This document shows positions 11,961 to 64,000 of a stretch of DNA of 64,000 nucleotides, in pieces. Every line of letters starts with the position of its first letter. The first letter of the stretch is position 1. The DNA lies in the NCBI GenBank assembly GCA_963575745.1, contig CAUYUJ010017893.1, positions 128,546 through 192,545 of the forward strand, written 5' to 3'. Both the position numbers and the translations under genes were made by a program. The notes under the pieces were generated by a model, which saw only the letters and a program-made list of their open reading frames with translations, was not told the origin of the DNA and did not search any database. The stretch is from Prorocentrum cordatum (lineage: Eukaryota; Sar; Dinophyceae; Prorocentrales; Prorocentraceae).

Positions 11961-12410
11961 CAACGGGAGCAGGAGGAGGGGGCCTGAGCAGGGCGGGGGG
12001 GGGGCTCCCGATGGGGGGCCCAAGAAGGGGGCCTGGGGGGCCCCGAGAGCGCCCCGTACAATGCCCCAACCCAGCCCTTGGGGCCCTCCTGGGGCCCTCC
12101 TGGAGCCCTCGTGGCTTTGGGGCCTCTGGTGCCCTTTTGTGGCCCCCATTGGGGCCCTCTCGGTGCCATCTTGGAGTCCACCCTGGGGGCCGAAATCCAG
12201 AGTGCTCCGACCGTTCAACCTCCTGGTGTGAGTCGTTCGGGCCCCTCTTCCTACTCCTCCTCCTCATCCTCTTTCTCCTCCTCCTCCTCCTCCTCCCTCC
12301 TCCCCGTCGTCCAAGGGGCCATCATCCCCCTCCTGCGCCCTCCTCCTCCTCCTCGTCTCCCCCCCCACCCCCCCAGGTCCCCCCCCACCCCCCGCTTGGA
12401 GTCGCCTTAG
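11961..12410. repeat. GGGGCCC-rich degenerate repeat and (CTC)n tract
   Basis: Units like GGGGCCCTCCTGG run to about 12190. A lone copy of the GGTGTGAGTCGTTCGG motif (reverse of the 47-52 kb satellite core) lies at 12222-12240. A (TCC)n tract and CCCCACC runs follow. Confidence 0.7.
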
Positions 12411-39110: not shown

Positions 39111-39600
39111 TGGGGGGTGCGGAGGGAGGAGGAGGGGGAGGGGGTAGGAACGGGAAGGGAGAAAGGCCGACCATGGGAGAGGGCACATGGGGCAGAGAGG
39201 GAAGGGGGAGGGGAAGAGAATGGGCAGAGGGGGGCAGAGGGGGGGGGGGAAGAGAGTGGCAGGACAGGGGAGGGATGAGACAAAGATGGGGACGAGACGG
39301 GGAAGAGCAAGGTTAGGGGACGGAGGGGGAAATGGTGCAGGGGGGGATGGAAGAGTTGGCGGAGAGGAGGGAGGAAGAGGGCGGTGCAGGACCTGTGATA
39401 CAGTAGGGGCCCGGCCACAAGAAACCTTCCACAAGAAACCCAACCCTGAGACCCCAGGACGTCCATTGATTTTTGCCGTGGGAGCGTCACATCTTCCCCA
39501 TTGCAGCATCATCGAAACGCAGTAACAACCCAGGGCACCCTGGAGGCAAGCAGGGTGTCTCTTGGCATGAGTCTCCTCTGTAGGATGCGAGGCGAGGGAA
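39110..39600. repeat. Purine tract plus dispersed hairpin repeat, copy 3
   Basis: The purine-rich part runs to about 39400. The hairpin repeat follows (39415-39600) with GACCCCAGGACGTCCATTG and GGAGGCAAGCAGGGTG. It abuts the 3' end of the Thr-rich gene, whose last open frame runs into it. Confidence 0.75.
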
Positions 39601-40247
39601 ACACGGTGGAGTAACGCATAGGGGACGTCTGTCTCCTGTGATCGTTCTGCTGGTGGATGTCTCTGTCACAGACGTCGCGCTCTGCGTGGCCACCTCCATG
39701 GGGTCCTCCTCGGATACTGTCGCAGTGGCTCCAGTGGTTGTCACCACCACCTCCAAGGTCTCCACGTTGGTGGTTGTCACCACCTCTTCTGGTAACATAG
39801 TGGGGTCCCCAGTGGTCGTCACCTCCATGGAGCCCTCCTCGGTTACTGTAGCAGTGGCCACCTCAAACGTTCCCGCGTCGGTGGTGGTCACATCCTCGCC
39901 AGGTGACGCAGTGGGGGCTCCAGTGGTTTCCACATCCACATCAAAGCTGTCCACGTGGGTGGTTGTCACCACCTCTTCTGGTAACTGAGTAGGGTCCCTA
40001 GTGGTCGTCACCTCCATGGAGCCCTCCTCGGTTACTGTCGCAGTGGCCAACTCAAATGTTCTGCTGGTGGTTGTGTCTGTCGCAGACGTCGCGCTCTGCG
40101 TAGTCATGGTGACGGTAACAATCCTCTTTAGTGGCTCTGTGACGATCAACGAGGTCTCATCCACTTCAAGTCCTTCCGATCCGAATGCTGATTGCAGTGC
40201 CGCTGCTGTGTCAACGGGGTTGGCACTCATGTTCTCCTCGGCAGGAG
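39601..40247 (-). CDS. Thr-rich surface protein, exon 3 (third, truncated unit)
   Basis: After a TGAAATTCAG acceptor at 40248-40250 the minus frame reads APAEENMSANPVDTAAALQS and FGSEGLEVDETSLIVTEP. This completes the small domain begun in the previous exon. About 2.5 Thr/Val/Glu repeats follow (TTTGDPTMLPEEVVTTT type). The phase (two bases plus codons) fits the phase-1 end of the upstream exon. The frame then runs into the dispersed repeat and stops at 39487, so the true 3' end is unclear: it may be truncated or continue through an intron. Confidence 0.5.
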
Positions 40248-40416
40248 CTGAATTTCAGGGGCATGCAGGGGATGAACCTAAAGATAATCGCACAGGTATG
40301 CAAATTCATTACGAAAGCACTTCCTTCACGCGCCCACGGTTTAGAAACGTGGTACCTCTAGCATTCACGTTATGGAAATCGCCCTGAGATAGCCCAAGGC
40401 CGCCCCAAGACAGCTG

Positions 40417-40461
<45 letters not shown>

Positions 40462-41199
40462 TACTGGCGCAAGAACGGCCTGTGGGTGCCCAAAACTGCC
40501 AAGATGTTCCCGAGAGGCCCAACCATGCCATATGACGCAACCAGGCCCTCAAATAATCCTCTAGCAGAACGCTGAAGACCAAAAACGCGGAAGAGATACG
40601 CCTGTCCTGTGATGTTGACTCTATTATCTGCCTGAGGTGGCACAATAAACAAACGATACCGGAGAACAACCCCAATCAGGGCTATAGGGATAGGGGGCTA
40701 TAGGGCTATTGAGCTATAGGGCTAGAGAGCTATAGGGCTATAGAAATGCAGGGCTATAGGGCTATTGGGCTATAGGGCACCCCCGGGCACACCCAAACAC
40801 CCGGGCACCCGGGCGTGCGGCGAAAATCGGCGGCAAACCAAACTTAACCATATGGATCCGCTAGGACCCCTACAGAGGCAAGCTCTGATTGGGGAACTTC
40901 AGACGACCCCAAGCTGGCCACAGCCCGCCCAAGACGGCCACATAACCTTCCTACCAGTTCTCAGAGGCCGCCCACAAAAGCCGCCAAGAGGCTCCAGCAA
41001 ACACGCCGCAGCGCGCAACAACCATGGAACGTTAAAGCCGCACTACGCTACAACATCGTAGCACTGCTCCACCAGACGGCGCCCAAATGACTTTACCGGC
41101 CCTGTCCAGGCGGACTCGGTAGAGCACCATCCTCAACGCATTCCGAGGCTGAGCTGGCACTGTCCAGGGGTTTGCCGCAGACACTGGAAATCCAATTAC
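40248..41199 (-). other. Intron 2 of the Thr-rich gene (duplicated)
   Basis: Between donor CTCAG|GTAATT (41200) and acceptor AATTCAG (40248). It contains an (AT)n tract at 40425-40450, a GGGCTATA minisatellite at 40680-40780, CCCGGGCAC units at 40780-40810 and unique sequence. It is nearly identical to the intron at 42935-43910 apart from repeat lengths and the (AT)n tract. An alternative GC donor (GGATG|GCAGGG) also keeps phase 1. Confidence 0.5.
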
Positions 41200-42934
41200 C
41201 TGAGCTCCGCCCATGATCAACGGCCGTTTCGGAGCCCCTGCCATCCGTTGTCTGGAAGATCTCTTCGGCAGCCTGCTGAGGCGCGCTTAACTCGAAGTCC
41301 ACCACCCATGCCGATGACGAGGTGGAGAGCCGCCGAGCTGGTCGTCCAAGTTCTCTTGAAACGATTACCACTAACTTGTCCTCCTCTACTTTGAACTTGG
41401 CAATGAAGTAAGACCTCACCAGGGCCTTCACCTGCTCCGCGGTCCCTGTGCTTCTGAACCCCATGGTGCTACTCACAACCCACATAGGCGTGGTTGTGCT
41501 TGTCATGGTGGTCGAAGTCGTTGCCGATGTGAGACTTACCGACGACCAGGTACTTGTCTTTGTTTGAGTCGACGTGATGGTGGTTGCTGTCATTGTGACC
41601 GACGTTAAAGTCGTCGTCAATGTCAGAGTTGTCAACGTCAAGCTACCTGTAGTGGGGACTGCAGTGGTTTCCACCTCTTCCTCCAAGGTTTCAACGCCGT
41701 TGGTTGTCACCACCTCTTCGGGTAACATAGTAGGGGCCCCAGGGGTCGTCACCTCTATGGTGCCCTCCTCGGTTGCTGTCGCAGTGGCCACCTCAAACGT
41801 TCCCGCGTCGGTGGTGGTCACATCATCGCCAGGAGACGCAGTGAGGGCTCCAGTGGTTTCCACCTCCACCTCAAAGGTCTCCACGTCGGTTGTTCTCACC
41901 ACCTCTTCTGGTAACATAGTGGGGGCCCCAGTGGTCTTCACCTCTATGGTGCCCTCCTCGGTTGCCGTCGCAGTGGCCATCTCAAACGTTCCCGCGTCGG
42001 TGGTGGTCACATCCTCGCCAGGAGACGCAGTGGGGGCTCCAGTGGTTTTCGCCTCCGCCTCCAAGGTCTCCACGTCGGTGGTTGTCACCACCTCTTCGGG
42101 AAACATAGTGGGGGCCCCAGTGGTCTTCACCTCTATGGTGCCCTCCTCGGTTGCTGTCGCAGTGGCCATCTCAAACGTTCCCGCGTCGGTGGTGGTCACA
42201 TCCTCGCCAGAAGACGCAGTGGGGGCTCCAGTGGTTTCCACCTCCGCCTCAAAGGTCTCCACGTCGGTGGTTGTCACCACCTCTTCGGGAAACATAGTGG
42301 GGGCCCCAGTGGTCGTCACCCCCATGAAACCCTCCTCGGTTGCCGTCGCAGTGGACACTGCAAACATCACCACGTCGGTGGTGGTCACCTCCTCGCCAGA
42401 AGACGCAGTGGGGGCTCCAGTGGTTTCCACCTCCGCCTCAAAGGTCTCCACGTCAGTGGTTGTCACCACCTCTTCTGGTAACATAGTAGGGGCCCCAGTG
42501 GTCTTCACCTCCATGGAGCCCTCCTCGGTCACTGTCGCAGTGGCCACCTCAAGCGTTCCCTCGTCAGTGGTGGTCACGTCCTCGCCAGGTGTTGCAGTGG
42601 GGGCTCCAGTGGTTTCCACCTCCACCTCGAAGGTCTCCACGTCGGTTGTTCTCACCACCTCTTCTGGTAACATAGTAGGGTCCCCAGTGGTCGTCACCTC
42701 CATGGAGCCCTCCTCGGTTACTGTCGCAGTGGCCAACTCAAACGTTCTGCTGGTGGTTGTTTCTCTCGCAGACGTCGCGCTCTGCGTAGTCATGGTGACG
42801 GTAACAATCCTCTGTAGTGGCTCTGTGACGACCAACGAGGTCTCATCCATTTCAAGTCCTTCCGATCCGAATGCTGATTGCAGTGCCGCTGCTGTGTCAA
42901 TGGGGTTGGCACTCATGCTCTCCTCGGCAAGGAA
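41200..42934 (-). CDS. Thr-rich surface protein, exon 2 (duplicated unit)
   Basis: Encodes the second half of one small domain (ESMSANPIDTAAALQSAFGS, EMDETSLVVTEP). About seven repeats of roughly 63 residues follow, each TTGAPTMLPEEVVTTTDVET plus TTGAPTASPGEDVTTTDAGT plus an ATATxTEEG segment. A Thr/Ser-rich stalk (TLTLTTTLTSVTMTATTITS) leads to the first half of the next domain (VVSSTMGFRSTGTAEQVKAL, ARRLSTSSSAWVVDFELSAP). Dense Thr implies O-glycosylation and an extracellular, mucin-like role. The acceptor side (TTCCTTGCC) has one base more than exon 3, so with the same splice sites this exon joins out of frame. A small shift of splice site or a sequence error would explain this. Confidence 0.5.
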
Positions 42935-43910
42935 CTGAATTTCAGGGGCATGCAGGGGATGAACCTAAAGATAATCGCACAGGTATGCAAATTCATTACG
43001 AAAGCACTTCCTTCACGCGCCCACGGTTTAGAAACGTGGTACCTCTAGCATTCACGTTATGGAAATCGCCCTGAGATGGCCCAAGGCCGCCCCAAGACAG
43101 CTGCAATCTGTACTGGCGCAAGAACGGCCTGTGGGTGCCCAAAACTGCCAAGATGTTCCCGAGAGGCCCAACCATGCCATATGCTGCAACCAGGTCCTCA
43201 AATAATCCTCCAGCAGAACGCTGAAGACCAAAACGCGGAAGAGATACGCCTGTTCTGTGATGTTGACTCTATTATCTGCCTGAGATGGCTCAAGAAACAA
43301 ATGATACCAGAGAAAAAAACAATCAGGGCTATAGGGCTAGGGGGCTATAGGGCTATTGAGCTATAGGGCTATAGAGCTATAGAGTTGTAGGGCTATAGGG
43401 CTATCAGGCTATAGGGCACCCCCGGGCACCTCCGGGCACGCCCAAACACCCGGGCACCCGGGCAACCGGGCACCCGGGCACCCCAGGGGCACCCGGGCAC
43501 CCCCGGGCACCCGGGCACCCGGGCGTGCGGCGAAAATCGGCGGCAAACCTAACCTAACCATATGGATCCGCTAGGACCCCTACAGAGGCAAGCTCTGATT
43601 GGGGAACTTCAGACGACCCCAAGCTGGCCACAGCCCGCCCAAGACGACCACATAACCTTCCTACCAGTTCTCAAGAGGCCGCCCACAAAAGCCGCCAAGA
43701 GGCTCCAGCAAACACGCCGCAGCGCGCAACAACCATGGAACGTTAAAGCCGCACTACGCTACAACATCGTAGCACTGCTCCACCAGACGGCGCCCAAATG
43801 ACTTTACCGGCCCTGTCCAGGCGGACTCGGTAGAGCACCATCCTCAACGCATTCCGAGGCTGAGCTGGCACTGTCCAGGGGTTTGCCGCAGACACTGGAA
43901 ATCCAATTAC
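42935..43910 (-). other. Intron 1 of the Thr-rich gene
   Basis: Same content and order as the downstream intron: GGGCTATA minisatellite (43325-43415), a longer CCCGGGCACCCC array (43420-43530) and unique sequence including ATATGGATCCGCTAGGACCC. It lies between donor 43911 and acceptor 42935-42937. Confidence 0.55.
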
Positions 43911-46485
43911 CTGAGCTCCGCCCATGATCACCGGCCGTTTCGGAACCCCTGCCATCCGCTGTCTGGAAGATCTCTTCGGCAGCCTGCTGAGGCGCGCTTA
44001 ACTCGAAGTCCACCACCCATGCCGATGACGAGGTGGAGAGCCGCCGAGCTGATCGTCCAAGGTCTCTTGAAACAATTACCATTAACTTGTCTTCCTCGAC
44101 TTTGAACTTGGCAATGAAGTAAGACCTCACCAGGGCCTTCACCTGCTCCGCGGTCCCTGTGCTTCTGAACCCCATGGTGCTACTCACAACCCACATAGGT
44201 GTGGTTGTGCTTGTCATGGTGGTCGAAGTCGTTGCCGATGTGAGACTTACCGACGACCAGCTACTTGTCTTTGTTTGAGTCGACGTGATGGTGGTCGCCG
44301 TCATTGTGGCCGACGTTAAAGTCGTCGTCAATGTCAGAGTTGTCAACGCCCAGCTACCTGTAGTGGGGGCTGCAGTGGTTTCCACCTCCACCTCAAAGGT
44401 CTCCACGTCGGTTGTTCTCACCACCTCTTCGGGAAACATAGTGGGGGCCCCAGTGGTCTTCACCTCTATGGTGCCCTCCTCGGTTGCTGTCGCAGTGGCC
44501 ATCTCAAACGTTCCCGCGTCGGTGGTGGTCACATCCTCGCCAGAAGACGCAGTGGGGGCTCCAGTGGTTTCCACCTCCGCCTCCAAGGTCTCCACGTCGG
44601 TGGTTGTCACCACCTCTTCGGGAAACATAGTGGGGGCCCCAGTGGTCATCACATCCGTGGAACCCTCCTCGGTTGCTGTCGCAGTGGCCTGCTCAAACGT
44701 TTCGGCGTCGGTGGTGGTTACATCATCGCCAGGTGACGCAGTGGGGAATCCAGTGGTTTCCACCTCCATCTCGAAGGTCTCCACGTCTGTGGTTCTCACC
44801 ACCTCTTCGGGAAACATAGTGGGGGCCCCTGTGGTCGTCACCTCCATGAAACCCTCCTCGGTTGCTGTCGCAGTGGACACTGCAAACATCACCACGTCGG
44901 TAGTTGTCACATTCTCGCCGGGTAGCACATTAGGGGCTCCAGTGGTCTTCAACTCTATGGTGCCCATCTCGGTTGCTGTCGCAGTGGCCACTTTAGACAT
45001 CACCACGTCGGTGGTGGTCACCTCCTCGCCAGGTGACACGGTGAGAGCTTCAGTGGTCGTCACCTCAATGGAGCCCTCCTCGGTCACTGTCGCAGTGGAC
45101 ACCTCAAACGTTCCCACGTCGGTGGTGGTCACATCCTCGCCAGGTGTTGCAGTGGGGGCTCCAGTGGTTTCCACCTCCACCTCAAAGGTCTCCACGTCGG
45201 TGGTTCTCACCACCTCTTCGGGTAACATAGTAGGGGCCCCAGTGGTCTTCACCTCCATGTAGCCCTCGTCGGTTACTGTCGCAGTGGCCTGCTCAAACGT
45301 TTCGGCGTCGGTGGTGGTCACATCCTCGCCAGGTGACGCAGTGGGGGCTCCAGTGGCTTCCACCTCCACCTCCAAGGTCTCCACGTCGGTGGTTGTCACC
45401 ACCTCTTCTGGTAACATAGTAGGGGCCCCAGTGGTCTTCACCTCCATGGAGCCCTCCTCGGTCACTGTCGAAGTGGCCACCTCAAGCGTTCCCTCGTCAG
45501 TGGTGGTCACATCCTCGCCAGGTGACGCAGTGGGAGCTCCAGTGGCTTCCACCTCCACCTCCAAGATCTCCACGTCGGTGGTTGTCACCACCTCTTCGGG
45601 AAACATAGTTGGGGCCCCTGTGGTCGTCACCTCCATGAAACCCTCCTCGGTTGCTGTCGCAGTGGACACTGCAAACATCACCACGTCGGTGGTGGTCACA
45701 TCCTCGCCAGGTGAAGCAATGGGGGCTCCAGTGGTTTCCACCTCCACCTCAAAGGTCTCCACGTCGGTAGTTGTCACCACCTCTTCGGGAAACATAGTAG
45801 AGGCCCCAGTGGTCTTCACCTCCATGGAACCCTCCTCGGTTGACGCTGCAGACATCACACCGTCGGTGGTGGTCACCGTCTCGCCGGGTAGCACCGTCGG
45901 AGCTCCAGTTGTCTTCACCTCTATGGTGTCCCCCTCGGTTGCTGTCGCAGTGGCCACCTCAGATATCACCACGTCGGTGGTGGTCACCTCCTCGCCAGGT
46001 GACACAATGAGAGCTCCAGTGGTCTTCGCCTCTATGGTGCCCTCCTCGGTTGTTGTCGCACTGGCTACCTCAAGAATCTCCACATTTGTGGTGGTCACCA
46101 TTTCGCTGGGCAAAACAGTAAGGGCTCCCGTGGTCTTCGACTCCTCGGTTGTTGTCGCAGTGGCCACCTCCGGAGTCGCCACGTCGGTGGTGGTCACAAC
46201 CTCGCCGAATAGCACAGTAGGGGCCCCAGTGGTTTCCATCCCCATGGTGAATACCTCGAGTGCTGTCGCAGTGGCAACCTCAGATGTCTGTTTGTCGGTG
46301 GTGGTGACCTCCTCGCCAAGGCTTGTGCTGGCGAGTGCGACGGTAGCTGCTGAAGTGCTTGTCAGCGTGCGGGTGATGGTAGCCTGTGATGCTGAAGTAG
46401 TACTTGCCATGGTGGTAACCCTCGTCGCGATGCCCACCACACCAACAGAGTATACCCCGTGGCCGACATGCGAATCCGCCGAACC
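43911..46485 (-). CDS. Thr-rich surface protein, exon 1 of this window
   Basis: Begins after a CCCACAG acceptor at 46486-46488 preceded by a CT microsatellite. It opens GSADSHVGHGVYSVGVVGIA, matching the end of the small domain in the 32.4-kb exon (DAQVGEGVYSVGVARVTA). About 12 degenerate Thr/Val/Glu repeats of around 63 residues (189 bp) follow. The end is identical in layout to exon 2: a Thr/Ser stalk, then AEQVKALVRSYFIAKFKVEE, DKLMVIVSRDLGRSARRLST and VVDFELSAPQQAAEEIFQ. The exon is 2,575 bp and ends in phase 1 at CTCAG|GTAATT. An upstream exon with the start of the domain and any signal peptide was not found before 47 kb. Likely a cell-surface or wall protein (inference from composition). 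Confidence 0.6.
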
Positions 46486-46517
46486 CTGTGGGACCACAGG
46501 CGTATGCGCGTGTGTGT

Positions 46518-46550
<33 letters not shown>

Positions 46551-46560
46551 AGAGATAGTA
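46486..46560 (-). promoter_or_regulatory. Splice acceptor with microsatellite polypyrimidine tract
   Basis: On the minus strand a (CT)n run with CTAT interruptions (46524-46556) is followed by about 35 bp and then CCCACAG, where the Thr-rich exon begins. The microsatellite appears to serve as the polypyrimidine tract. Confidence 0.5.
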
Positions 46561-46985
46561 ACTTGCCTGGGTATTCATAATCCTTGCAATATGTTCCAAT
46601 CCCACCAGCCCTTTGGGCGTGAGTGGTTTAGAGAGCCCGCTCTGTCCTCAACCCCCTTCTTCCCCTTCGGGGAGGGGTTTACCCCTCCCCCTACCCCCTC
46701 CCCTGGACCTGGAGAGGGCGGGCGGAGTGGTGTCAAGGGGGTCTTTTTCGACTCCTGGGAGGGCCAAAAAACGACGACCCTCACGAGGATTCTGGTCCCG
46801 AGGGGGGGAAACCGTTTGGCGCATCAACTCGTCTTTGAAGCCAAAAACATTGATTTTACTACGGTTTCGGCCCCTTTTTGGCTTTCTGAAAGGGCCGCGC
46901 TCATCGTCCTTCATCGCAAAATTATTGATTATACAGAGGTTTTGGCGTCATTTTCTCCTTCTCAGGGGGCAGCGCTCACTTCCGC
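46561..46985. other. Spacer leading into the satellite array
   Basis: Includes a CCCCTTCGGGGAGGGG hairpin-like stretch near 46670. TTGATTTTACTACGGTTTC and CTTCTCAGGGGGCAGCGC segments are repeated at 48598-48660. Confidence 0.5.
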
Positions 46986-48590
46986 TTCTGAGGAGGTCGC
47001 AAAAGGCCCCAAGATGACCCCAAGAGGCTCCCAGGAGGCTCCCAAGAGGCCTCCAAGAGGCCCCCAAGAGGCCCCCAAGAGGCCCCAAGAGGCCCCCAAG
47101 AGGCCCCCAAGAGACCCCCCCAAAAAGGCTCCCATGAGGCCCCGAAAACCTCCAAGAGGCCCCCAAGAGACGCCCCAGAGGCCCCGAGAGGCTCCAAGAA
47201 GCACCCAAGAGGCCCCGCGAGGAGCCCGAACGACTCACACCACGCCGTGGGGCCCCAACGACTCACACCACGAAGAGCCCGAACGACTCACACCACAAGG
47301 AAGGGCCCGAACGACTCACACCAGGACGAGGCGCCCGAACTACTCACACCACGAGGAGCCCGAACGACTCACACCACGACGCGGGCCCCCAACGACTCAC
47401 ACCACGGGAAGCCCGAACGAGTTACACCAGGAGGAGGGGCCCGACCGACTCACACACAAGGAGGGGACTCATACCGCGAGGAGACCGAACGACTCACACA
47501 TAATGAGGGACCGGAAGGAGTCACACAAGGAAGGACGAGGGGCCCCAACGACTCACACCACGAATAGCCGGAACGACTCACATATCTGCAACGCACACAG
47601 ACGCGAACTCTCGCATTATCTCTGGAGGCCCTCCCGTGGCACTGCAAACCTGCACGTTTAGGGGAGGCCTTCTTCCTGCTTCGTTTTCTTTTTTCTTCTT
47701 TGATGGGCAAGGGCGGGTGCACTTCAGCCAGCACGTTGCGTAACGCACGACGCGCCTACTGCGCACCAGCGCGCTAGAGGATCATCGGAGGTTCGTCTTC
47801 CAGGCCTGGCGAGGGCCCGATCGACCTCCTAACAAAAAATCGCGACACCTCTTACCCCCTTGGCAGCGAGGGACAGGGTGCCCTCATTTCGCAAGGGGGC
47901 GACATCGTGCAAATACAAGCTCGACACTGGCGCGTGTCTGCGGCAGTCCGCGGTGGCAACCGTGCCTGCATGTCCTCGAGAGTTAGCCGCCACAACGCTG
48001 CTGCCACGAGGGCGAGGCCAATGGGGCAAGGAGTGAAACATGCATCACATCAACAAGTGGCCGACATAATGGACGAGAGTCCCATGAGGCCCCCAAAAGG
48101 CCCCAAGAGGCCCCCAAGAGGCCCCCACGATGCCGCCCCCAAGAAGCCCCAAGACGCTTCAAGAGGCCCCCAAGAGGCCCCCAAGAGACCCCCCCCAAAA
48201 GGCTCCCATGAGGCCCCGAGAACCTCCAAGAGGCCCCCAAGAGGCTCCACGAGGAGGCCGAACGACCCCCCCCAGGACGAGGAGCCCCAACGACTCACAC
48301 CACGACGAGCCCGAACGACTCACACACAAGGAGGGGCCCGAGCGACGCACACCAGGAGGAGCGACCCGAACGACTCACACCACCAGGAGCCCGAACGACT
48401 CACACGCAAGGAGGCGCCCGAACGACTTCCACCAGGACGAGGGGCCCCAACGACTCACACCACGGGGAGCCCGAACGACTCACACACAAGGAAGGGTCTC
48501 AACGACGCACACCAGGACGAGGGGCCCGAACGACTCACACCACGAGGAGCCCGAACGACTCACTCACAATGAAGGGCCCGAGGCACTCAC
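46940..48590. repeat. ~1.65-kb segmental duplication, copy 1
   Basis: TTCTCAGGGGGCAGCGCTCA, the mixed arrays, AACTCTCGCATTATCTCTGG (47600), GGAGGCCTTCTTCCTGCTT (47665), GATCATCGGAGG (47780) and TGCGGCAGTCCGCGG (47940) all recur in the same order in copy 2. Confidence 0.8.
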
Positions 48591-51500
48591 ACAATCATTG
48601 ATTTTACAAAGGTTGTGGCGTCGTTTTACCTTTCTCAGGGGGCAGCGCACACTTCCGCTTCTGAGGAGGTCGCAAGAGGCCCCAAGATGACCCTAAGAGG
48701 CCCCCTGGAGGCTCCCAAGAGGCCTCCAAGAGGCCCCCAAGAGGCCCCCCAGAGGCCCCAAGAGGTCACCAAGAGACTCCCAAGAGGCCCCCATGAGGCC
48801 CCAAGTAGCTCCAAGAGGCCCCCAAGAGGCCCCCAAGAGGCCCCCAAGAGACGCCCCAGAGGCCCCGAGAGGCTCCAAGAGGCTCCCAAGAGGCCCCACG
48901 AGGAGCCCGAACGACTCACGCCACGCCGTGGGGCCCCAACGACTCACACCACGAAGAGCCCGAACGACTCACACCACAAGGAAAGGCCCGAACGACTCAC
49001 ACCACGACGCGGGCCCCCAACGACTCACACCACGGGAAGCCCGAACGATTTACACCAGGAGGAGGGGCCCGACCGACTCACACACAAGGAGGGGACTCAT
49101 ACCACGAGGAGCCCGAACGACTCACACATAATGAGGGACCCGAGGGAGTCACACAAGGAAGGACGAGGGGCCCCAACGACTCACACCACGAATAGCCGGA
49201 ACGACTCACATATCTGCAACGCACACAGACGCGAACTCTCGCATTATCTCTGGAGGCCCTCCCGTGGCACTGCAAATTTGCACGTTTAGGGGAGGCCTTC
49301 TTCCTGCTTTGTTTTCTTTTTCCTTCTTTGGTGGGCAAGGGCGGGTGCAGTTCAGCCGGCACGTTGCGTAACGTACGACGCGCCTACTGCGCACGAGCGC
49401 GCTAGAGGATCATCGGAGGTCCGTCTTCCAGGCCTGGCGAGGGCCCGATCGACCTCCTAACAAAAAATCGCGACACCTCTTACCCCCTTGGCAGCGAAGG
49501 ACAGGGTGCCCTATTTTCGCAAGGGGGCGAAATCGTGCACATACAAGCTCGACAGTGGCGCGTGTCTGCGGCAGTCCGCGGCGGCAACCGTGCCTGCATG
49601 TCCTCGAGCGTTAGCCGCCACAACGCTGCTGCCACGAGGGCGGGGCCAATGGGGCAAGGAGTGAAACAGGCATCACAACAACAAGTGGCCGACATAATGG
49701 ACGAGAGTCCCAAGAGGCCCCCAAGAGGCCCCAAGAGGCCCCCAAGAGGCCCCCAAGAAGCCCCCAAGAAGCCCCAAGACGCTGCAAGAGGCCCCCAGGA
49801 GGCCCCAAAGACACCCCCCAAAGGCTCCCAAGAGGCCCCGAAAACCTCCAAGAGGCCCCCAGGAGGCCTCACTAGGAGGCCGAACGACTTCCCCCAGGAC
49901 GAGGAGCCCCAACGACTCACACCACGAGGAACCCGAACGACTCACACACAAGGAGGAGCCCAAGCGACGCACACCAGGAGGAGTGACCCGAACGACACAC
50001 ACAACCAGGAGCCCGAACGACTCACACGCAAGGAGGCGCTCGAACGACTCCCACCAGGACGAGGGGCCCGAACGACTCACACCACGGGGAGCCCGAACGA
50101 CTCAGGCCCCACGAGGAGGCCGAACGAGTCACCCCAGGACGAAGGGCCCCAACGACTCACACCACGAGGAGCCCGAACGACTCACACACAAGGAGGGTCC
50201 CGAACGACGCACACCAGGACGAACGGCCCGAACGACTCACACCACGGAGGCCCGACCGACTGACACGCAAGGGGGCGCCCGAACGACTCACACCAGGACG
50301 AGGGGCCCGAATGACTCACACCACGAGGAGCCCCAACGACTCACACACAAGGAGGGGCCCGAACGACGCACGCCAGGACGGACGGCCCGAACGACTCACA
50401 CCACGAGGAGCCCGAACGACTCACACGCAAGGAGACGCTCGAACGACTCACACCAGGACGAGGGGCCCCAACGACTCACGCCACGAGGAGCCCGAACGAC
50501 TCACACACAAGGAGGGGCCCGAACGACGCACACCAGGACGAGGGGCCCGAACGACGCACACACAATGAGGGGCCCGAGGCACTCACAAAAGGAAGGACGA
50601 GACCCCCAAGAGGCCCCAAAGAGGCCCCAAGAGGCCCCCCAGGAGGCCTCCAAAAGGCCCCACAGAAGCCCCAAGACTCCTCAAGAGGCACCCAAGAGGC
50701 CCCCAAGAGACCCCCCCAAAGGCTCCCTAGAGGCCCCGAGAACCTCCAACAGGCCCCCAAGAGTCCCCACGAGGAGGCCGAACGACCCCCCCCAGGACGA
50801 GGAGCCCCAACGACTCACACCACGAGGAGCCCGAACGACTCACACACAAGGAGGGGCCCGAGCGACGCACACCAGGACGAAAGGCCCGAACGACTCACAC
50901 CACGAGGAGTCCGAACGACTCACACGCAAGGAGGCGCCCGATCGACTCACACCAGGACGAGGGGCCCGAACGACTCACACCACGAGGAGCCCGACCGACT
51001 CACACACAAGGAGGGGCCCGAACGACGCACACCAGGACGAGGGGCCCCAACGACTCACACCACGAGGAGCCCGAACGACTCACACACAATGTGGGGCCCG
51101 AGGCACTCACACAAGGAAGGACGAGAGTCCCAAGAGGCCCCCAAGAGGCCTCCAGAGGCCCCAAGGAGGCCTCCAAGAAGCCCCCAAGAAGCCCCAAGAC
51201 GCTTCAAGACGCCCCCAAAAGGCCCCAAAGACACCCCCCCAAAGGCTCCCAAGACGCCCCGAGAACCTCCGAGAGGCCCCCAAGAGGCCCCACGAGCAGG
51301 CCGAACGACTCCCCCCAGGACGAGGAGCCCCAACGACTCACACCACGGGGAGCCCGAACGACTCACACACAAGGAGGGGCCCGAGCGACGCACACCAGGA
51401 CGAACGGCCCGAACGACTCACACACAATGAGGGGCCCGAGGCACGCACACAAGGAAGGACGGACCCCCAAGAGGCCCCCAAGAGGCCCCAAGAGGCCCCC

Positions 51501-51835
51501 CAAGAGGCCTCCAAGAGGCCCCAAAGAACCCCAAGACGCCTCAACAGGCCCCACAAAGGCCCCCAAGAGACCCCCAAGAGGCCCCCAAGAGGCCCCGAGA
51601 GCCGCCGAGAGGCCCCGGAGAGGCCCCACGAGGAGACCGAACGGCTCACCCCAGAACGAGGGGCCCCAACGACTCACACCACGAGGAGCCCGAACGACTC
51701 ACACACAAGGAGGGGCCCGAACGACTCACACCAGGACGAGCGGCCCAAACGACTCACACCACGAAAAGCCCAAACGACTCACACCAGGACGAAAACCCCG
51801 AACGACGCACACCAGAACGAAGGCAATCACTACCA
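46990..51835. repeat. Composite array: 12-bp GGCCCCCAAGAG and 25-28-bp CGAACGACTCACACC units
   Basis: Blocks of the 12-bp unit (around 46990-47220, 48085-48250, 48665-48895, 49710-49870, 50605-50770, 51130-51290 and 51465-51625) alternate with blocks of the 25-28-bp unit. The longer unit is CGAACGACTCACACCA plus a GGACGAGGGGCC or CGAGGAGCC end. Frames are open throughout (Arg/Pro/Thr/Asp-rich plus strand, Ser/Gly/Leu-rich minus strand) and are not genes. The 25-28-bp unit also fills the helicase intron at 55290-55753, and the 12-bp family occurs at 4.5, 26.8 and 28.1 kb. Confidence 0.92.
48591..50235. repeat. ~1.65-kb segmental duplication, copy 2
   Basis: Same landmarks about 1,630-1,670 bp further on (48635, 49235, 49300, 49410, 49570). 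Differences are mostly in array copy number. Confidence 0.8.
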
Positions 51836-53197: not shown

Positions 53198-54664
53198 TTA
53201 AGCATTCGACCAGTACTTCAGCTCATATGCCGTTGTACATTTTCCACAGCGCAGCTTCGTCTGACAGTCCAAGCACACCAACCGGGCCTTCTCCCGCCTC
53301 TTCGCATTCTTCAGCAGTTGCCTGTCGAACGCGAGGCTGCCCAAGTGCTCCAAGCAATCTTCGCACAGGTGCTCGTCGATGTTGCCGGGAGCAAACCCTC
53401 GCTCTGCGCAGCCCGGGCACGCGAGGTCGATATCGGCACACCGATGATGTTTCATAATATTCGGGCCCCACACGCCTTCGTCAAAAACATCTTTGCAAGC
53501 AGCACACCCGTGGCTCTGCGGGATCAGGCTCCTCTTCCAGTCATCACGTTCCACACACCGCTTGCATATTGAATGATCTGGCGGGCTTCTCCTTGGAGCG
53601 TTGCCATCGGCCATCCCTTGGGAAGCCTCGGCCACCCGCGCAGACCGACAAAGCATTGGGCCGATCTCGCGCGCGCAGTCCATGCATCTCGTCCACCTCC
53701 CTTGCGACGCGTACTTCTCGTAGAAGTCAGCGGCTGCTTTCATGCCGAAGTCGCGAGCGTCGAGCATGTACTCCTGCTTCCCTTTGAGGTAGCAGCAGGC
53801 GCACAGGTGCTGCCTCGCCATGGGGTCCATCTTCTCACACTCAGCGGCCTCGTCGTCAAGCGTACTCCATTCATGGATCGCCTCGTCTGCTGTGATATGG
53901 CCAGACAGCTTCCGCATCAGTCGCTCGGGCCCCACTGGGTTGCCGAGGCCGAACAGAAAGGTCGAGAACGGCTGCATGACGCAGATGTTTGGCAATCGCT
54001 TCACTCTGGACAAGCATACGTAGGCAGCAATCTGAGCTGTCATGGGCGCCCTGCTGGACCAATGCTGCAGGTCCGCGAATGCCGCTTCCAACGTCGCCCC
54101 CTGGATCATGTGAGCGGTGGGCGCGAAGTCGGGGAGAATCCAGAAGCCCGTGCGTCGAGCTTCGGTGCCTGTGTGTTTGTTGACTTTCCAAGTCCTGGAT
54201 CTTCGCTTCAAAGGGTATACGCCTGTCGGCAACTTGCCTATGCTCCACTGTGCTTCTGGAAAATGGATATAGATAACCAAGGGCAACCTATCCAATATGA
54301 ACTCGCCCTCGATCTCCTGGGGGCTGCAATCAGGCGCCGGAGTCCATCCGTAAATCACTCCCTTTCGGCGTCTGTAGAGTTGTCTGCTTCGATCGACGTT
54401 GTCCGTCAACCGAATGGGCATGCCTTTGGCCAATGGGTAGATGCTCGGAATGGTGCCCGTCTCCTGGTCGTGCCTCTTCAGCCAGGAGAACAACTTCTCG
54501 TCCAATTTCTCCCTCGGCAGATCGCGATCTCCTGGATGCAGCGGCGCATCTCGAACGCAGCACCACGAGAGCTGAACGTTCTTCTGCTCGGCAAACTCCC
54601 TCGCGCGCAGGTTCGTCGCGAAGTACCTGGGCACGTTGAAGGTGCACAGAGCGAGCAGGTGCGC
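53198..54664 (-). CDS. PIF1-type helicase C-terminal motifs and first zinc-ribbon block
   Basis: Continues FNVPRYFATNLRAREFAEQK (the 'vxxxNxxR' motif), PICVYIHFP-like VIYIHFPEAQWSIGKLPTGV, then HMIQGATLEAAFADLQHW and AAYVCLSRVKRLPNICVMQP. The last two are the UvrD_C_2-like 'HKxQGxTL...' and 'YVxLSRV' motifs that close a PIF1 core. A long Cys-rich tail follows with repeated CxxC pairs (CKRC, CAAC, CPGC, CEDC, CLDC, CGKC), probably several zinc ribbons. It ends at a TAA (53198-53200), but the same frame continues beyond it with more Cys pairs. Confidence 0.65.
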   Translation of the reverse strand, partial: AHLLALCTFNVPRYFATNLRAREFAEQKNVQLSWCCVRDAPLHPGDRDLPREKLDEKLFSWLKRHDQETGTIPSIYPLAKGMPIRLTDNVDRSRQLYRRRKGVIYGWTPAPDCSPQEIEGEFILDRLPLVIYIHFPEAQWSIGKLPTGVYPLKRRSRTWKVNKHTGTEARRTGFWILPDFAPTAHMIQGATLEAAFADLQHWSSRAPMTAQIAAYVCLSRVKRLPNICVMQPFSTFLFGLGNPVGPERLMRKLSGHITADEAIHEWSTLDDEAAECEKMDPMARQHLCACCYLKGKQEYMLDARDFGMKAAADFYEKYASQGRWTRCMDCAREIGPMLCRSARVAEASQGMADGNAPRRSPPDHSICKRCVERDDWKRSLIPQSHGCAACKDVFDEGVWGPNIMKHHRCADIDLACPGCAERGFAPGNIDEHLCEDCLEHLGSLAFDRQLLKNAKRREKARLVCLDCQTKLRCGKCTTAYELKYWSNA

Positions 54665-55289
54665 CGCTGAATGGGTTCATGCGAAGCTCTGGCGCCAGCG
54701 AGTCAGTGTCGGTCAGAACCCTGTGTCTCTTGCCTCGCTCCGCACGGCACTCTTCGCACTCGCCCTCTGGCGAGTTCAGAAGCGCCGCCGTGTCGGCGCG
54801 CCCTCCTGGGAAGCGCCCCCCCCAAGTCTTGCGATACGGGCCCAGTACTGGGTCGTCCACCACGTCGTCGTTGCAAACGCACTTACCCGCGCTCGGGGAC
54901 GTCAACGTCGGAAGCCCGTGGAAATAGCTGTAGTCCTCCATGCTGAGATTCCCAACTCTGCACTGGCCCAGAAACGAGTTGCACCATGCATCGTCGCACC
55001 TCATCAATTCAGTCAACTGCCAGAAAGATCGCACGCTGTTCACGCCGTCTTGCCAGAACAGCCCCAACGCGCGGCGCGCGCACCCTGCGGGCACGTCCAG
55101 AGGGTTGGATGCCAGGAAGGCGCCCGTCACGGGGTGCAACTGCCAAAAATCAGCGCACATGACCACGTTCACTCCCCCGAAGGCGCGATGCAACTCCCCC
55201 GCCCTCTTCTTGTACGTGCCCCTCACCCGGACAGCGGCACTGACCACTCGTTCCAGGGTGCCCAGCAGCTCCGCGGACATCATGCTCAC
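54665..55289 (-). CDS. PIF1-type helicase, motif III exon
   Basis: After the intron the frame reads VSMMSAELLGTLERVVSAAV, then AFGGVNVVMCADFWQLHPVT (motif III, 'GDFxQLPPV' type with Ala-Asp), NSVRSFWQLTELMRCDD and YFHGLPT. It then runs through Cys-containing GECEECRAERGKRHRVL to LAPELRMNPFS. At AGCGGCGCA (about 54665) the conserved text moves one frame to AHLLALCTFNVPRYFATNL, so one base is extra or two are missing. The 'QLxxxMR' motif is the usual partner to motif III. Confidence 0.65.
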
Positions 55290-55753
55290 CTGGAAATGTT
55301 GCATACAGAATATCTAATTTTCTGTGTGCGCTGAGCTATGCTCATTGCCTCCACAGGTCTTGCAAACATGGAGACGCCTGGGACGCAATAGAGGATTATC
55401 AGAATTTGCCCAGACGCCGCCGTTGGAGGTGACGAAGAGCCCGAACGACTCACACCACGTGAAGCCCGAACGACTCACACCAGGACGAGGGGCCCGAACG
55501 ACTCACACGACCACGAACTCCAACGACTCGCACCAGGAGGAGGGGCCCGAACAACCCACAAAAGGACGAAGGGCTCCAGCGACTCGCACCACGAGGAGCT
55601 CGAACGCCTCACACCAGGACGAGGGGCCCGAACGACTCACACCAAGAGGAGGAGCCCCAACGACCCACACACGAGGAGCCCGAACGACTCACACCACGAC
55701 GAGGGCAACGAACGATGCACTCCATGGAGTGACTCGTTCGGTGCCCTCGGGAC
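55290..55753 (-). other. 464-bp GT-AG intron built from the 47-52 kb satellite
   Basis: Minus strand: GACGAG|GTCCCGAG to ACATTTCCAG|GTGAGC. Splicing in phase 0 restores IIIDEVSMMSAELL, the exact PIF1 Walker B context. Most of the intron (about 55430-55700) is the CGAACGACTCACACC repeat. A 50-bp palindrome (55700-55749, 22 of 25 pairs, centre CCATGG) sits next to the donor. Confidence 0.75.
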
Positions 55754-57280
55754 CTCGTCGATGATGATCACGCGCAGGGCCCCGCACTTCATGGACTGCT
55801 TGTGCCTGTCGCCCATGGCATTCCCGTCGTCGTTCCGCGCCGGGATGCCGCTCCAGTGGTGCACCGTGTGGCCGTTGATCTGCGCCGCCATGGCATTTTG
55901 AAACGCCAAGCGAACGAACTGAACGCCGTGCTCCCAACCGAGACCTTCTTCCATTAAATACCGCATCCAGCCAATGACGGCACTTTTTCCGGTGCCCGGA
56001 AATCCGTGCACTACGTCCAGCAGAGGCTCCTCGGAATTCTGGTTCACGTTGCCCTGTTGCTTCTCCAGCCACTCAATCTTCAAACGTCGAACGAAGTGCT
56101 CGAGAAACTGGCGCTGTTTCTCGTTCGGGATCTTCGAGCTCGCCAATATGGAAGCAAACGCTTTGTCTATGCTGGTGAAGCAATTGCCTGCAGGGTTGAA
56201 CGAAGCAGCAGCATCTCGCTTCTCGTCGAAGGGAGCATCGTGCGCCTTCTGGCTCGTGCCACCTGCGGATAGAGCTGCGAGGTGGTCCTGGTACGCATCC
56301 TCGAAGATATTTCCCGGACATCCACGGTCTCCAGCCTCGACGCCAGATGGTTCCGTCTTCCACACTCGCTCTCCGATGCGATGGCTTTGTTCACACTCGT
56401 GAAGTCGGACACTTTTCTTCGCTCGGCTGTTCTCCGAAGCTTTCACCTTCGCTTTCGCCGAGGCGGTCCACTTCTCGCCGAGGCTGTCCTCTTCTTTGGC
56501 CGATTGGAGCAGTTGTTGAAACTTTCTACCAGGGAGGCTCAGCGGAGGCATATCTTGCTCTTCCTCCGACGCATCTGCCTCGCCCTGATCATCTGCCGCC
56601 TTGCCAGGCGACGCCATCGTATTCAACAGGAAACTCTGGATGAGTTTCGCCGCTGCTTGGCTGACCACGTTCCCGCGCACGTACTCGTCCCAAGCGGTCT
56701 TCCAGGATACGCTGTCCAGCGTCGATGGCGTCCCTGTTGTGGTTGTCTTCTTGGTTAGTCTACACGAAGCTCGAACTTGGGGCGACTGGTGCTGGGCCTC
56801 CTGCCAATGCCGCAGTACCGTTGACTCCGTCCCCAACATACTCAGGTGAGGCACAGTCACGTCTCCTCCATAGAGCGTCCAGGGACGGAAAAATAAACTG
56901 CAATACTGAGCGTTGTACGTAGAACTTTTGTGTACGCTGGGCATGGGCAAGCCTTCGATGACCACCACGTCCGGCCTCGCTTTCCTGACCAGAACGCATG
57001 AGTGGCAGAAGACACCTGCGTCCTGCGGAAACACGAAATACTCGTCGGCCTCGGGTGTCACTGCTATGTAATGCTCTCCAGGCTTGGCGGCGACGTCCCC
57101 ATCTTTGTACTGCTTGCTCCTGATTAATTGTTGACCTCCTTTCGGGGAGACGTGAGACCCGGGCGCGGGGGGCTCGGAAATCCCCCACGAGGTCGCCAAA
57201 CAAATCACGAGGCCGAGCCTGCATTTTGACGAGGCCTCCCGCTGCAGACATCCCGCAAAACTCCCCCTCGTCAAAATCTG
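55754..57280 (-). CDS. PIF1-type helicase, N-terminal half (Walker A and B)
   Basis: Opens with PGEHYIAVTPEADEYFVFPQ, LVRKARPDVVVIEGLPMPSV and CSLFFRPWTLYGGDVTVPHL. Next comes SVSWKTAWDEYVRGNVVSQA, an acidic linker, then the helicase core. That core has HGFPGTGKSAVIGWM (Walker A), INGHTVHHWSGI (the 'GxTIHs' motif) and RVIIIDE (Walker B), where the exon ends at GAG|GTCCCG (55754/55753). PIF1 helicases unwind DNA 5' to 3', and in Helitrons they drive rolling-circle strand displacement. Motif III and later motifs are on the next exon. Confidence 0.7.
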
Positions 57281-57289
57281 AATCGCGGT

Positions 57290-57930
57290 CGTCAAAAAAC
57301 GATGCCGAGCCCGAGTCCTGGCAAACCCGGGTCTTGCGCCCCCCCGAACCTTTTGTCCACGCAGTTCGTGCTGGCTGGTTGCGGTTCAAGTAGTGCGTCG
57401 GAACCAGCAGTGGTTCGCACCTCCACCGCCGCAAGAACTCGCACGCGGACAACAACTTCCAAGGGTGCTCCAAGGGGCGATATGCGTAGGCGTCGAAGTC
57501 GTTTACTCTCGACCGGTCCGTCCGCACGTTCGGTTTGCGAGCCGGCGGGACGTGCGTCGTCACGCTCGTGTCCTTCATCTGCGACGAATTCTGGGACGTC
57601 TCCAACCCGTTCATCCACGACCGCCCATCGATCGCCTGCGAGCCAAATGTTCGGATGCACTCTGCCTTCAGAACGTCCCCCAGGTCCAGATTGCAGCACA
57701 AGTTGCAGACTTCCACGGCGCCGCGGTACGTGCTGTTCATCTCGAATTCCGTTATCGGCCTCCCGCTGCTTGCTCTGAGCTGCGCCGCTTTGCCCCCGCC
57801 CTGTATCTTCGCCCTCAAGGTAAACAGCTTGTCCACGCATTTCTTAGTCTCCAAAGTGCCCGCGGGCTGTCGCTTGCCAATGTATCCCCCGAAATATATC
57901 CATTCGTAGCTACCTGCGTGCGCTGAATTG
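57290..57930 (-). CDS. Segment between Rep-like and helicase parts
   Basis: Reads YIGKRQPAGTLETKKCVDKL, STYRGAVEVCNLCCNLDLGD, NDFDAYAYRPLEHPWKLLSA and CEFLRRWRCEPLLVPTHYLN. These match the spacing of conserved blocks ('KRQP.G', a Cys-containing helix, 'LSPYEFxRyWxVxxVPxP') seen in this protein family. The frame changes near 57280 into the helicase frame. Confidence 0.5.
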
Positions 57931-60391: not shown

Positions 60392-60719
60392 CCCCGCAGA
60401 CCCGGACACGCTAGAACCGGACACCCAACACCTCTCGAAACCAAATTTTCCAAACGGCGGCACGAACGAAATACTGCACTGCTGCATTTCCAGAATAAAC
60501 CCGGACACAAGCCTCAAAAGCCCGCAAGACCCCTCTAAACCCGGACACAAACCCGAACCCTGCAGTGCAGCTAGGCAAACATGCACGGGTGCTGAAAAAC
60601 GTGACATTGCAAGAAAAAAATGTTTCCTTGGTTTTCCGTGTCCTGGTTTATCTGTGTCCTGGTCTCCGGGGGCCTGACCTTCGCCTGCGTTCTGGCTTCC
60701 GGCTTCCCGAGCGGGACGT
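60392..60719 (-). other. Probable intron of the Helitron-like gene
   Basis: Conserved coding stops after HGNLIDV (about 60720) and resumes at KGNLFSFSMPWDDIE (about 60380). The interval carries short ACCCGGACACA repeats and GGTCTCCGGGGGCC-type sequence, and no conserved protein. Exact splice sites are uncertain. A GAC|GTCCCG donor would match the donor of the helicase intron. Confidence 0.4.
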
Positions 60720-63200
60720 CGATCAGGTTGCCGTGCGGGGCCTCCAGGTAATAGACCAACATCGTACTCCACACTGCGCAGCGCGCCGCGCACTCCAGCC
60801 ACGTGACGTCGTTCTCCACAATGTATCGACTCACGTGGCCGTAGTAATGGTCGTTCGCTATGCTCATAGGGATGGTCCCGCCGTCGAGGAGAGAGGACGC
60901 CGCCTCGTGATCCCTGAGTTTCCCCGTGCAGTCGCGGCAAACTGGCACCTCGCACTGCGGGCAAAGTTTCCTGCAGAACGGCGGCGTTTCCCAATCGTCC
61001 GAATGTCTGTCGGGACACGCGAGGCGTCGGACGTCCTCAGTGCACCCGAATAACTTCCCTGATCTGCCTTCGAAGCTGAACTGGACGGCCCACCGCGACA
61101 CGTGGCGCTCCTGGTTTTCAACACGGGTGCTCAACGGTTCACTTAACACCTTCTGTCCTCTCCACGGGTGCGCCTTGCTTGTCTCGAGGTCCCGATCCAC
61201 GTGCCGCTTCTGCCATAGATCGAACCCGCAGTTGTTGAGCGGCGTCCCAGGGAAGTTCTTCTCAACGTCCTGGAAAGCCGCCTCTTTCCAATATCTTATC
61301 TCGACGTTGCCAGACGCGAGGGACATGGAACTCGACTCCAGGTCAACTGGCGGGTACCCCGCGCACGTCGTGCGAAGTTGGCCGCATATGAAGCAGGCCA
61401 GACATGTCGTCGTCTCGTCGTTGTACCGGAGCGCGAGCGGGTTCAGGGATCGCCGAGTTGTCGACAGCCCCAACATTGGCCACCGCTCCCGCTCGGCAAC
61501 GGCCATGGCCTCGTACACGTAGTCCAAGTTCGTCATCCAGCGAATATCGTTGTTGCAAATCTTCCTTATCACACTGGCATGCGTGAGATCCCCGGCGCCG
61601 CCGGCGATATGGTGCAAGAAGGCTACCCGGCCACTCGTGTGGAAACGGCAAGGCCCGCTGTGGTTGTTTTGGAAAGGACACGAGTACAAAGGCAACTTCA
61701 CTCCAGTTTCCAAGTCGGGAGCTGTCAAGGCTGCGCCGTCAGCTGTCAGCGGCGGCGTGGGCCGTTCTCGCATGAGTTTGCGAAGTTCTCGGCAACGGCC
61801 ATCAATCGCGTCCATTTCCACGGGCTCTCCACGGACTTGCTCCGCGTTGGCGCGAACTGCAAAATATTGCTCCTCCACGCCGTCGTCCCCTTCGCTATCA
61901 GATTCCTCGCAGGCGCCTTCGCTTGACTCCGAAGCGATGCCTTTGTCTCTGTCAGTTGCCTCCACAGCCGGCGTCCCTGCATTGCCTGGGAATTGGAACC
62001 CCAAGAAATCGAGCACGTCCGTGACGCACTGGCCCCCGTCAGTCGCCGCGACACCCGGCATTGCCGAGGCGGCGTCCTGGCGCTCCGCCGCATTGACGTG
62101 GTCGTCGCAACCAGCGTCGCATCCACTATGCATTTCGAAAGCCTCCTTCAGATGCAATCCAGACTTTCCGCCGGTCGCGCGCCGTCCAGCGCGCGCCCCG
62201 CGCGGCGGCGGCGGCAGCGGGGCGCGCTCGTTACTCTGGCCGTGCTTCTCTCGTTCGACTTCCTCGTCTGTCCTTGCTCGCTTTGCCGGGGCACTCCCAT
62301 CCTCCTGCCGCGTCGTCTGCTGCGCCGCTCCATCGTTCCCGTCTCCGCAGCTTCTCTCTTCGGCAGGGGGACGTGCCGGGGTTCTTTCACTCTGGGTTTT
62401 CGGGCGCTTCGCCTCTCTGTGCCCATCATCTTCAGTGGAGCGATCGCCGCCCGGGCTTCTCCCCCGCCCAGGCAACTGCTCCTGCGGGCAAACTAGGGAC
62501 GTGGCCACCGCTGGAAGGCTCGGGTCTCCGACGTGCGAACGCGCGTACGTCAACTCGTGCGCCGCAGAGCACTGCGCGAAAATGACTACATTCTGCCTCT
62601 TGCAGCGCGCCAGCGCAAGCAGTTCGATGTCGCTGAGATAATAATCTGCGCACGTAGTCATGGCTTCCAGATAGGCAGGATAGACGGCATTGAAGAAATT
62701 TGCGGGCAGCCCGGCAGATTGGTAGTTGCACTCCCTGGCCTTGTCCACGGACTCTGCGAAGGCCGATATAGGTTCCAGGTCGACGCCGCCGTCGAAATCG
62801 AGGCCGTCAACCACGTCGTGGATCTTACAGAGAAGCAAATCGAATGAGTTCTGGAGGCATGCATCTTCAACGACACTTCTGTGCCACTCTCGAGCGCCAG
62901 CGGTTCCCGCGAACAGCGCCTCGTACTTGCTCAGGCGGCGTCCTCCACAGAACTCATCAGATGCTTCTGCCGTGTACTTATTCAACAACCCCAAGGATCG
63001 CATCAAAGGCATTATGAAGACATCCTGGAAATCTTCGACGCAGAGATAACCAAACTCTTGCATTATCCTTGTTTTACGCTCCCTGTGCACTTCGAACTTG
63101 TGCAGTTCTTCCCGGCATGCCTCAACGCAGCGCTGAGCAACGTCGAAATAGGATTCCAGAAGGCAGTGCCACACGTGCTGACCTTCGTTGTCTCCCGCGT
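60720..63200 (-). CDS. Middle region with DUF6570-like Cys cluster
   Basis: The long minus frame starts with conserved GQHVWHCLLE and continues through LSKYEALFAG. A low-complexity acidic/basic linker rich in Arg, Glu and Asp follows. A globular part (NDIRWMTNLDYVYEAMAVAE, RYNDETTTCLACFICGQL) then leads to the Cys cluster CPQCEVPVCRDCTGKLRDH. The end, IANDHYYGHVSRYIVENDVT then WLECAARCAVWSTMLVYYLE, is the conserved block I associate with DUF6570, which precedes the Helitron helicase-like domain in many eukaryotic transposon proteins. Conserved coding ends near APHGNLIDV (about 60720). The frame continues to 60571 into probable intron. Confidence 0.6.
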
Positions 63201-63517
63201 GCAGCGGAGCACCGAAGGGCCCCGATTGCTTCGCAAAAGGTTGGATCAAATCCCAGGAGTGCCCATTCCATGTCGCCCAGCAGCTCCTCGGACGACAGCC
63301 TCGATTGAAAGATGTCAGCGGTGGGACCGAATGCTTCGCGCAGAAACGAGCGAGCGTCGGGCTTGACCAGCTCACCCCACTCCCACTCGCCCCACACAGA
63401 ATGAATGGCGCACGCGCCGTCTCCAGCCGTAGGCATCGTTTCCATCAGCATCCCCCGCAAGTCTCGCACCGCTCGGGGCAAGGGCGCGTGAACCTCACGT
63501 AAGTCCACGACTGGCAT
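63190..63517 (-). CDS. OTU-like cysteine protease segment (N-terminus)
   Basis: From ATG 63515-63517 the frame reads MPVVDLREVHAPLPRAVRDL, then TAGDGACAIHSVWGEWEWGE and VKPDARSFLREAFG. 'GDGxCxxHxxxG' is the signature around the catalytic Asp and Cys of OTU-family deubiquitinases, which are found fused to some Helitron and related transposon proteins. The C-terminal catalytic His was not located with confidence. The frame is lost near 63200, where conserved sequence passes to the next frame at GQHVWHCLLESYFDVAQR. An in-frame stop lies 27 bp upstream of the ATG, next to a CACCTGAG acceptor-like site, so the ATG may be internal. Confidence 0.5.
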
Positions 63518-63539: not shown

Positions 63540-64000
63540 CCTCAGGTGTTGGGAAGAATAGCGTCCGTGCGGAGCTAAACTCACTGCAGAAGAACGTCCG
63601 TGCGGAACTAACTTGACTTGCCCCACAATGGCTACGGAAAATCGCTAGGGAATCGTAGCGCCTTCGACCCTCTGATGGCAAAACCCTTGTGGACCCTAGC
63701 CTTTGTCGCACTCCCTTGTGGACCCGAGTCCCTTGTCTCGACTCCCAGGACAAAGCAATAGTAACATCTTCAGAGCCAGCACGACCAGTAAACCCGATGG
63801 GAACCCGAAAAAAAAACCAGGAAAACCAGGCACCAGCAAAGGCGAGATCGGAGGAACCAGCAAAGGCGAGATAACAGGACCCGACAAAGGAACCAGGACC
63901 CAGCCAGGGCAGTGAAGGGAGGGGGCCTCGGGCCAGCAGCTCGGTTGGTACGTATGGGTATCTCTTTTTGTATATGTCTGGGTTCTTCTGGTGGTTTTCT
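63540..64000. other. Upstream flank with short direct repeats
   Basis: ACGTCCGTGCGGAACTAA-type words at 63560 and 63594, CCCTTGTGGACC words at 63687 and 63713, and AACCAGCAAAGGCGAGAT at 63833 and 63855. No gene called. Confidence 0.45.

Follow-up and report, generated by a model that had tools for sequence, protein, structure and literature searches.

How does a helicase gene come to hold, in one of its apparent introns, the satellite that also builds an array a few kilobases away, and did the repeat enter the intron or spread from it? We addressed this question at a Prorocentrum cordatum locus, in a window of 64,000 nucleotides (the whole stretch of DNA analysed; contig CAUYUJ010017893.1), by comparing the gene with its relatives and the intron with the rest of the window.

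The helicase gene and its interruption

On the minus strand, positions 55290..55753 separate the Walker B residues DE from the following VSMM of a PIF1-type helicase and form a putative spliceosomal intron of 464 bp with GT-AG ends. Read on that strand, the borders are exon ...CATCGACGAG, insert GTCCCGAGGGCA...CAACATTTCCAG and exon GTGAGCATGA. The length of the insert is not a multiple of three and an in-frame stop lies inside it; its excision restores the conserved reading frame, joins the flanks as IIIDE-VSMMSAELL and raises the Pfam PIF1 score from 26.8 bits for the 3' ORF alone to 55 bits. The coordinates given in the preliminary description of this DNA proved exact, and its call of an intron is supported by the GT-AG ends, the restored DE-VSMM text, the rise in score and the same-site breaks in relatives described below. 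An AGGT direct repeat is found at both borders; AG-GT is also an ordinary exon context. Folded as RNA, the whole intron gave a z of -3.8. The AG/G acceptor and the GC-rich exons of the helicase gene fit Prorocentrum cordatum-like genomes, as these are described in the accessible text of PMC10666404.

Walker A and Walker B lie in the exon that runs up to DE (55754..57142, minus strand), and the helicase stretch after the intron occupies 53441..55289 on the same strand (P0049, 81-82% identity; P0009 and P0071 from 55292). A second apparent intron of ~208 bp (57143..57350, minus strand) is seen as a gap between helicase stretches. The first stretch supported by relatives begins at 58405 on the minus strand, and upstream of it a further break at ~60440-60660, judged by eye from the reading frames, would belong to the same gene. 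The core of the satellite described below is absent from the gap at 57143-57350 and from the break at 60440-60660, both of which lie upstream in the same direction. Inside the helicase stretches the reading frame changes at ~57890 and ~54653 (minus strand), where matches in one frame overlap or adjoin those in another; these changes may reflect either an ageing copy or sequence errors.

The joined protein matched PF05970 (55 bits, cut-off 25.9) and, among solved structures, PIF1 helicases, the best being PDB 5o6b (E 3e-09). It resembles PIF1-type helicases (PF05970; 5o6b) in Walker A, Walker B and the text after Walker B, but differs in that in the relatives PIF1 makes up one portion of a longer protein, the remainder of which has no Pfam match above the cut-off. 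Across seven window ORFs and four relatives, only PIF1/AAA models exceeded the Pfam cut-offs; no transposase, Rep or Helitron domain did so, a result that divergent domains could escape. Sub-threshold Pfam names, such as a phage terminase, a reverse-transcriptase thumb and a DUF29 model, were set aside as below the cut-off.

A relict resembling the dinoflagellate spliced leader (DinoSL; 18/21 bases) lies at 63617..63637 on the minus strand, the strand of the helicase; the first helicase stretch supported by relatives begins 5.2 kb further downstream. The relict is the sole match in the window at ≤6 mismatches, where ~0.001 would be expected at ≤3 mismatches and none of 100 shuffles reached that level. 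An ATG follows 100 bp downstream; its frame stops after ~130 residues and overlaps, in another frame, a 934-residue ORF (60571-63375). A peptide translated from the reading frame that follows the relict had no Pfam match. The ATG may be the start of the helicase gene. DinoSL relicts mark retroposed genes, and intron-bearing cases are on record in the accessible text of PMC6050394. With such DinoSL-tagged retrogenes, as far as the same text describes them, the locus shares a spliced-leader relict ~100 bp before an ATG and the precedent of introns; it differs in having one relict at 18/21 and an ATG frame whose link to the helicase we infer. The relict makes a dinoflagellate origin likely and a retroposition of the helicase gene possible, so that the gene may be a retroposed dinoflagellate gene.

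The same site in related helicases

At least 77 relatives were collected, 69 from a search with the joined helicase, in which the 7998 candidates with the most shared words were scored, and 8 more from a second search. At the DNA level, the loci were few (5 and 2) and distant (identity at most 34%), and the relatives were therefore compared as proteins. Seven of the 77 (P0010, P0014, P0019, P0020, P0024, P0030 and P0036) match the helicase as far as DE, beyond which their residues are unrelated; the four best matches to the 5' exon are P0014, P0010, P0019 and P0020, all breaking after DE. P0018 and P0035 match from VSM onwards, and the unrelated residues before it end in Q, an apparent acceptor side. 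Read-through relatives may be spliced transcripts. Four of them (P0002, P0016, P0026 and P0033) have unrelated ends at other places; these look genomic and would be intron-free at this site.

None of the satellite's 5-mer peptides was found in the relatives' intron stretches, which are 3-45 residues long and available as peptide only, so that satellite lying deeper would be missed. Within the reach of these peptides, the comparison shows that the satellite is not seen at the apparent intron start in any of the seven relatives. The preliminary description had proposed to look in other copies for the intron with and without the repeat; the same-site break is indeed there in 7 of 77, and its freedom from satellite peptide holds for the short peptide stretches visible, a result that bears on one half of the condition which that description had named for its own refutation. 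The intron stretches are also unlike one another: of 21 pairs (stretches of ≥10 residues, six pairs with the window; P0036, with 3 residues, left out), none beat its shuffles. The exons are themselves already at 60-86% identity, and drift alone could have made the introns unlike.

A tree of the 5' part was built from the window and 51 of the 77 relatives, 43 of which read through the site; its rows comprise 8 intron rows (window included), 43 read-through rows and 1 unlabelled. A second 5'-part tree retained 36 of the 52 rows, with 16 long-branched, short or unlabelled rows omitted. On either 5'-part tree, 2 changes suffice to place the eight intron rows, and 0 of 500 shuffles did as well. On the 36-row tree they fall within an 11-row group (support 87/89) alongside the read-through relatives P0001, P0017 and P0023. 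As a single clade they appear in 1% of 200 bootstrap trees with an AU p of 0.171, which neither shows nor rejects such a clade.

The 3' tree is weaker (43 rows, with six rows starting with Met near the site kept apart and four unlabelled). Its three intron rows (window, P0018 and P0035) did not cluster, needing 3 changes, which 500 of 500 shuffles equalled; the 30 read-through rows need 4 changes, and 1 of 500 shuffles was as low. Taken together, the clustering of the same-site breaks on the 5' tree and the lack of a visible satellite peptide in the relatives suggest that the site probably predates the satellite, and we conclude that it was probably inherited within one branch. The best reading of the insert, from sequence comparison, is an intron of a DNA-helicase gene that would be removed by splicing and whose site is common to some related copies.

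The satellite in the intron and in the array

Ten satellite units are arranged head to tail at 55442..55708 (plus strand; one of 24, three of 25 and six of 28 bp). At the donor side of this tract, a 50-bp palindrome (55700..55749) begins 4 nt inside the donor and contains two more cores, one at 55709 and one, inverted, at 55726-55740; its DNA fold reaches -20.8 kcal/mol (z -6.6). The satellite's 15-base core, CGAACGACTCACACC, matches the window 96 times at ≤3 mismatches, against 2.5 expected, and 0 of 100 shuffles reach as many. This core brings the consensus donor-like hexamer GTGAGT onto the sense strand of the intron in five places, where base composition would predict 0.15.

Of the core matches, the region at 47-52 kb accounts for 84, every one of them on the plus strand; the intron contributes 11, of which 10 are plus and 1 minus, and a single orphan lies on the minus strand at 12225-12239. 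The preliminary description had identified the intron's repeat with that of the neighbouring array, and these 84 array and 11 intron matches support it. Its further statement that the repeat makes up the intron body applies to about two thirds: satellite and palindrome cover 308 of the 464 bp, and the 152 bp on the acceptor side (55290..55441, minus strand) are non-satellite, with no other match in the window at E 1e-3. The orphan unit (12219..12252, minus strand), 94% identical over 34 bp to the intron tract, shows satellite dispersal. Beyond the window, the exact 19-base satellite pattern had 0 matches in viral_contigs and 0 in genome_contigs, and a protein query with the satellite ORF gave no match at E 0.001 for the 7989 candidates that were scored. 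Rfam gave 0 matches.

Other features of the window were also recorded. Self-complementary repeats of ~31 bp (CCACATGTGGATTTCTTGG-like) lie at 9500-11716, two long ORFs (533 and 918 aa; 12879-17160, minus strand) have no Pfam match at E 0.01, and Thr/Val-rich ORFs at 39487-46605 (minus strand) have 189-bp repeat units in related copies, the longest having no Pfam match. Seven other window ORFs yielded 0 Pfam families at E 0.01.

The neighbouring array (47218..51820, plus strand) consists of blocks of the intron's satellite (25-, 27- and 28-bp units) that alternate with a CCAAGAGGCC satellite and other sequence. A larger repeat of ~1.63 kb is also visible there (47007-49868), the non-satellite stretch at ~47582 recurring at ~49210. 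The array had been placed 1 kb beyond the 3' end of the gene; its end at 51820 is 1.6 kb from the last helicase stretch supported by relatives (53441), and the earlier distance holds only when measured to another Cys-rich ORF (52775), ~1 kb away, which no relative was seen to cover.

The ten intron units have the orientation of the 47.2-51.8 kb array. Compared with any of the 74 array units, they reach a mean best identity of 0.899, while units of the seven array blocks are at 0.929-0.988 to units outside their own block. In the five array blocks with ≥3 pairs, lag-3 identity is 0.81-0.90, above lags 1 and 2 in four of the five, lag 2 being nearly equal in the 47 kb block (0.805); in the intron tract, lag 3 (0.768) and lag 2 (0.767) are alike (7 and 8 pairs). 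The 25- and 28-bp unit types are common to intron and array, meaning that more than one monomer type is shared; 27-bp units make up 20 of the 74 in the array and none in the intron. The intron's 0.90 against the 0.93-0.99 of the array blocks speaks against recent seeding in either direction. The intron tract looks like neither a fresh copy of the array nor its recent source, and the direction of transfer would be unreadable from these identities.

We regard as unlikely the reading that the satellite arose in the helicase intron and then gave rise to the neighbouring array. The shared family and orientation, the ~3.6 kb between the two tracts and the divergence of the intron units, which are the most diverged, as an old source might be, would agree with this reading; it is opposed by the lack of satellite at the site in the visible parts of relatives, by the 27-bp units and the second satellite found in the array, and by the orphan unit 43 kb away. 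The preliminary description had offered two readings, a spread of the repeat into introns or growth of the array from an intron carried by a transposon. The second is not supported: the visible peptide stretches at the breaks of the seven relatives show no satellite, the intron units are diverged, and no transposase or Helitron domain exceeded the Pfam cut-offs in the ORFs and relatives examined. As to the first, the orphan unit at 12.2 kb shows dispersal and the two other apparent introns of the gene lack the core; the repeat may spread into introns in general.

Origin of the satellite tract

An introner, a mobile element that would have created the intron on insertion with the satellite as part of it, is an improbable source. 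The AGGT repeat at both borders falls within the 3-5 nt looked for in such elements and a stable hairpin stands at the donor end, but AG-GT fits an ordinary exon as well, the site is common to copies with other content, and the window contains the non-satellite part once only. Dinoflagellate genomes are reported to be rich in introners (PMC7789003, PMC10666404 and PMC11453091, in their accessible parts), and the accessible text of PMC10666404 gives an 8-20 nt inverted repeat between both intron ends as their mark. Here, the first 30 and the last 30 nt share an exact inverted match of 3 nt at most, and we therefore did not file the insert as an introner. To the dinoflagellate introner elements, as portrayed in the accessible parts of PMC7789003, PMC10666404 and PMC9860276, the insert is similar in its short border direct repeat, its hairpin and the repeated sequence in the intron, and dissimilar in that no inverted repeat joins its ends and its site recurs in copies with other content.

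We consider doubtful a reading in which retroposition produced a DinoSL-tagged helicase family whose copies retain or regain an intron at one fixed site, each refilling it with whichever tandem repeat is abundant locally. If this were true, satellites would be raw material for intron renewal, and a captured tract would even supply donor-like sites ready for use, as the consensus core of the satellite contains GTGAGT on the sense strand of the intron.

Very unlikely is a dead helicase copy broken by a satellite insertion, with no intron at all: the other frame changes near 57890 and 54653 would suit it, but removal between the GT-AG ends makes the Walker B text whole again, and in seven relatives the break falls at the identical residue.

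We consider it probable that the insert is an inherited spliceosomal intron of a multicopy PIF1-type helicase family, and that in this copy the two thirds of it on the donor side were supplanted or lengthened by a dispersed, GC-rich satellite that is also present nearby. A multi-unit piece of satellite would have entered the intron by DNA repair or template switching, and the palindrome at the edge of the tract may be the fold-back scar of that entry. The tract would have been tolerated since splicing would remove it, and would then have decayed, escaping the homogenisation that the array shows.

Introns in which satellite DNA has settled are already known. The TCAST satellite families of Tribolium (PMC5844308) offer a likeness, repeats of array-forming families inside introns; the accessible part of that source describes a genome-wide survey with mostly single repeats, in contrast to the one ten-unit tract at one locus here. 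Our literature search, with little reach into subscription papers, found nothing on dinoflagellate introns filled with satellite, nor on the present helicase family.

For this probably inherited intron, position seems to outlive content: a satellite enters a gene and the spliced message would be unspoiled. If many introns in this genome prove to be filled with satellites, tandem repeats would have to be counted, next to introners, among the origins of intron sequence.
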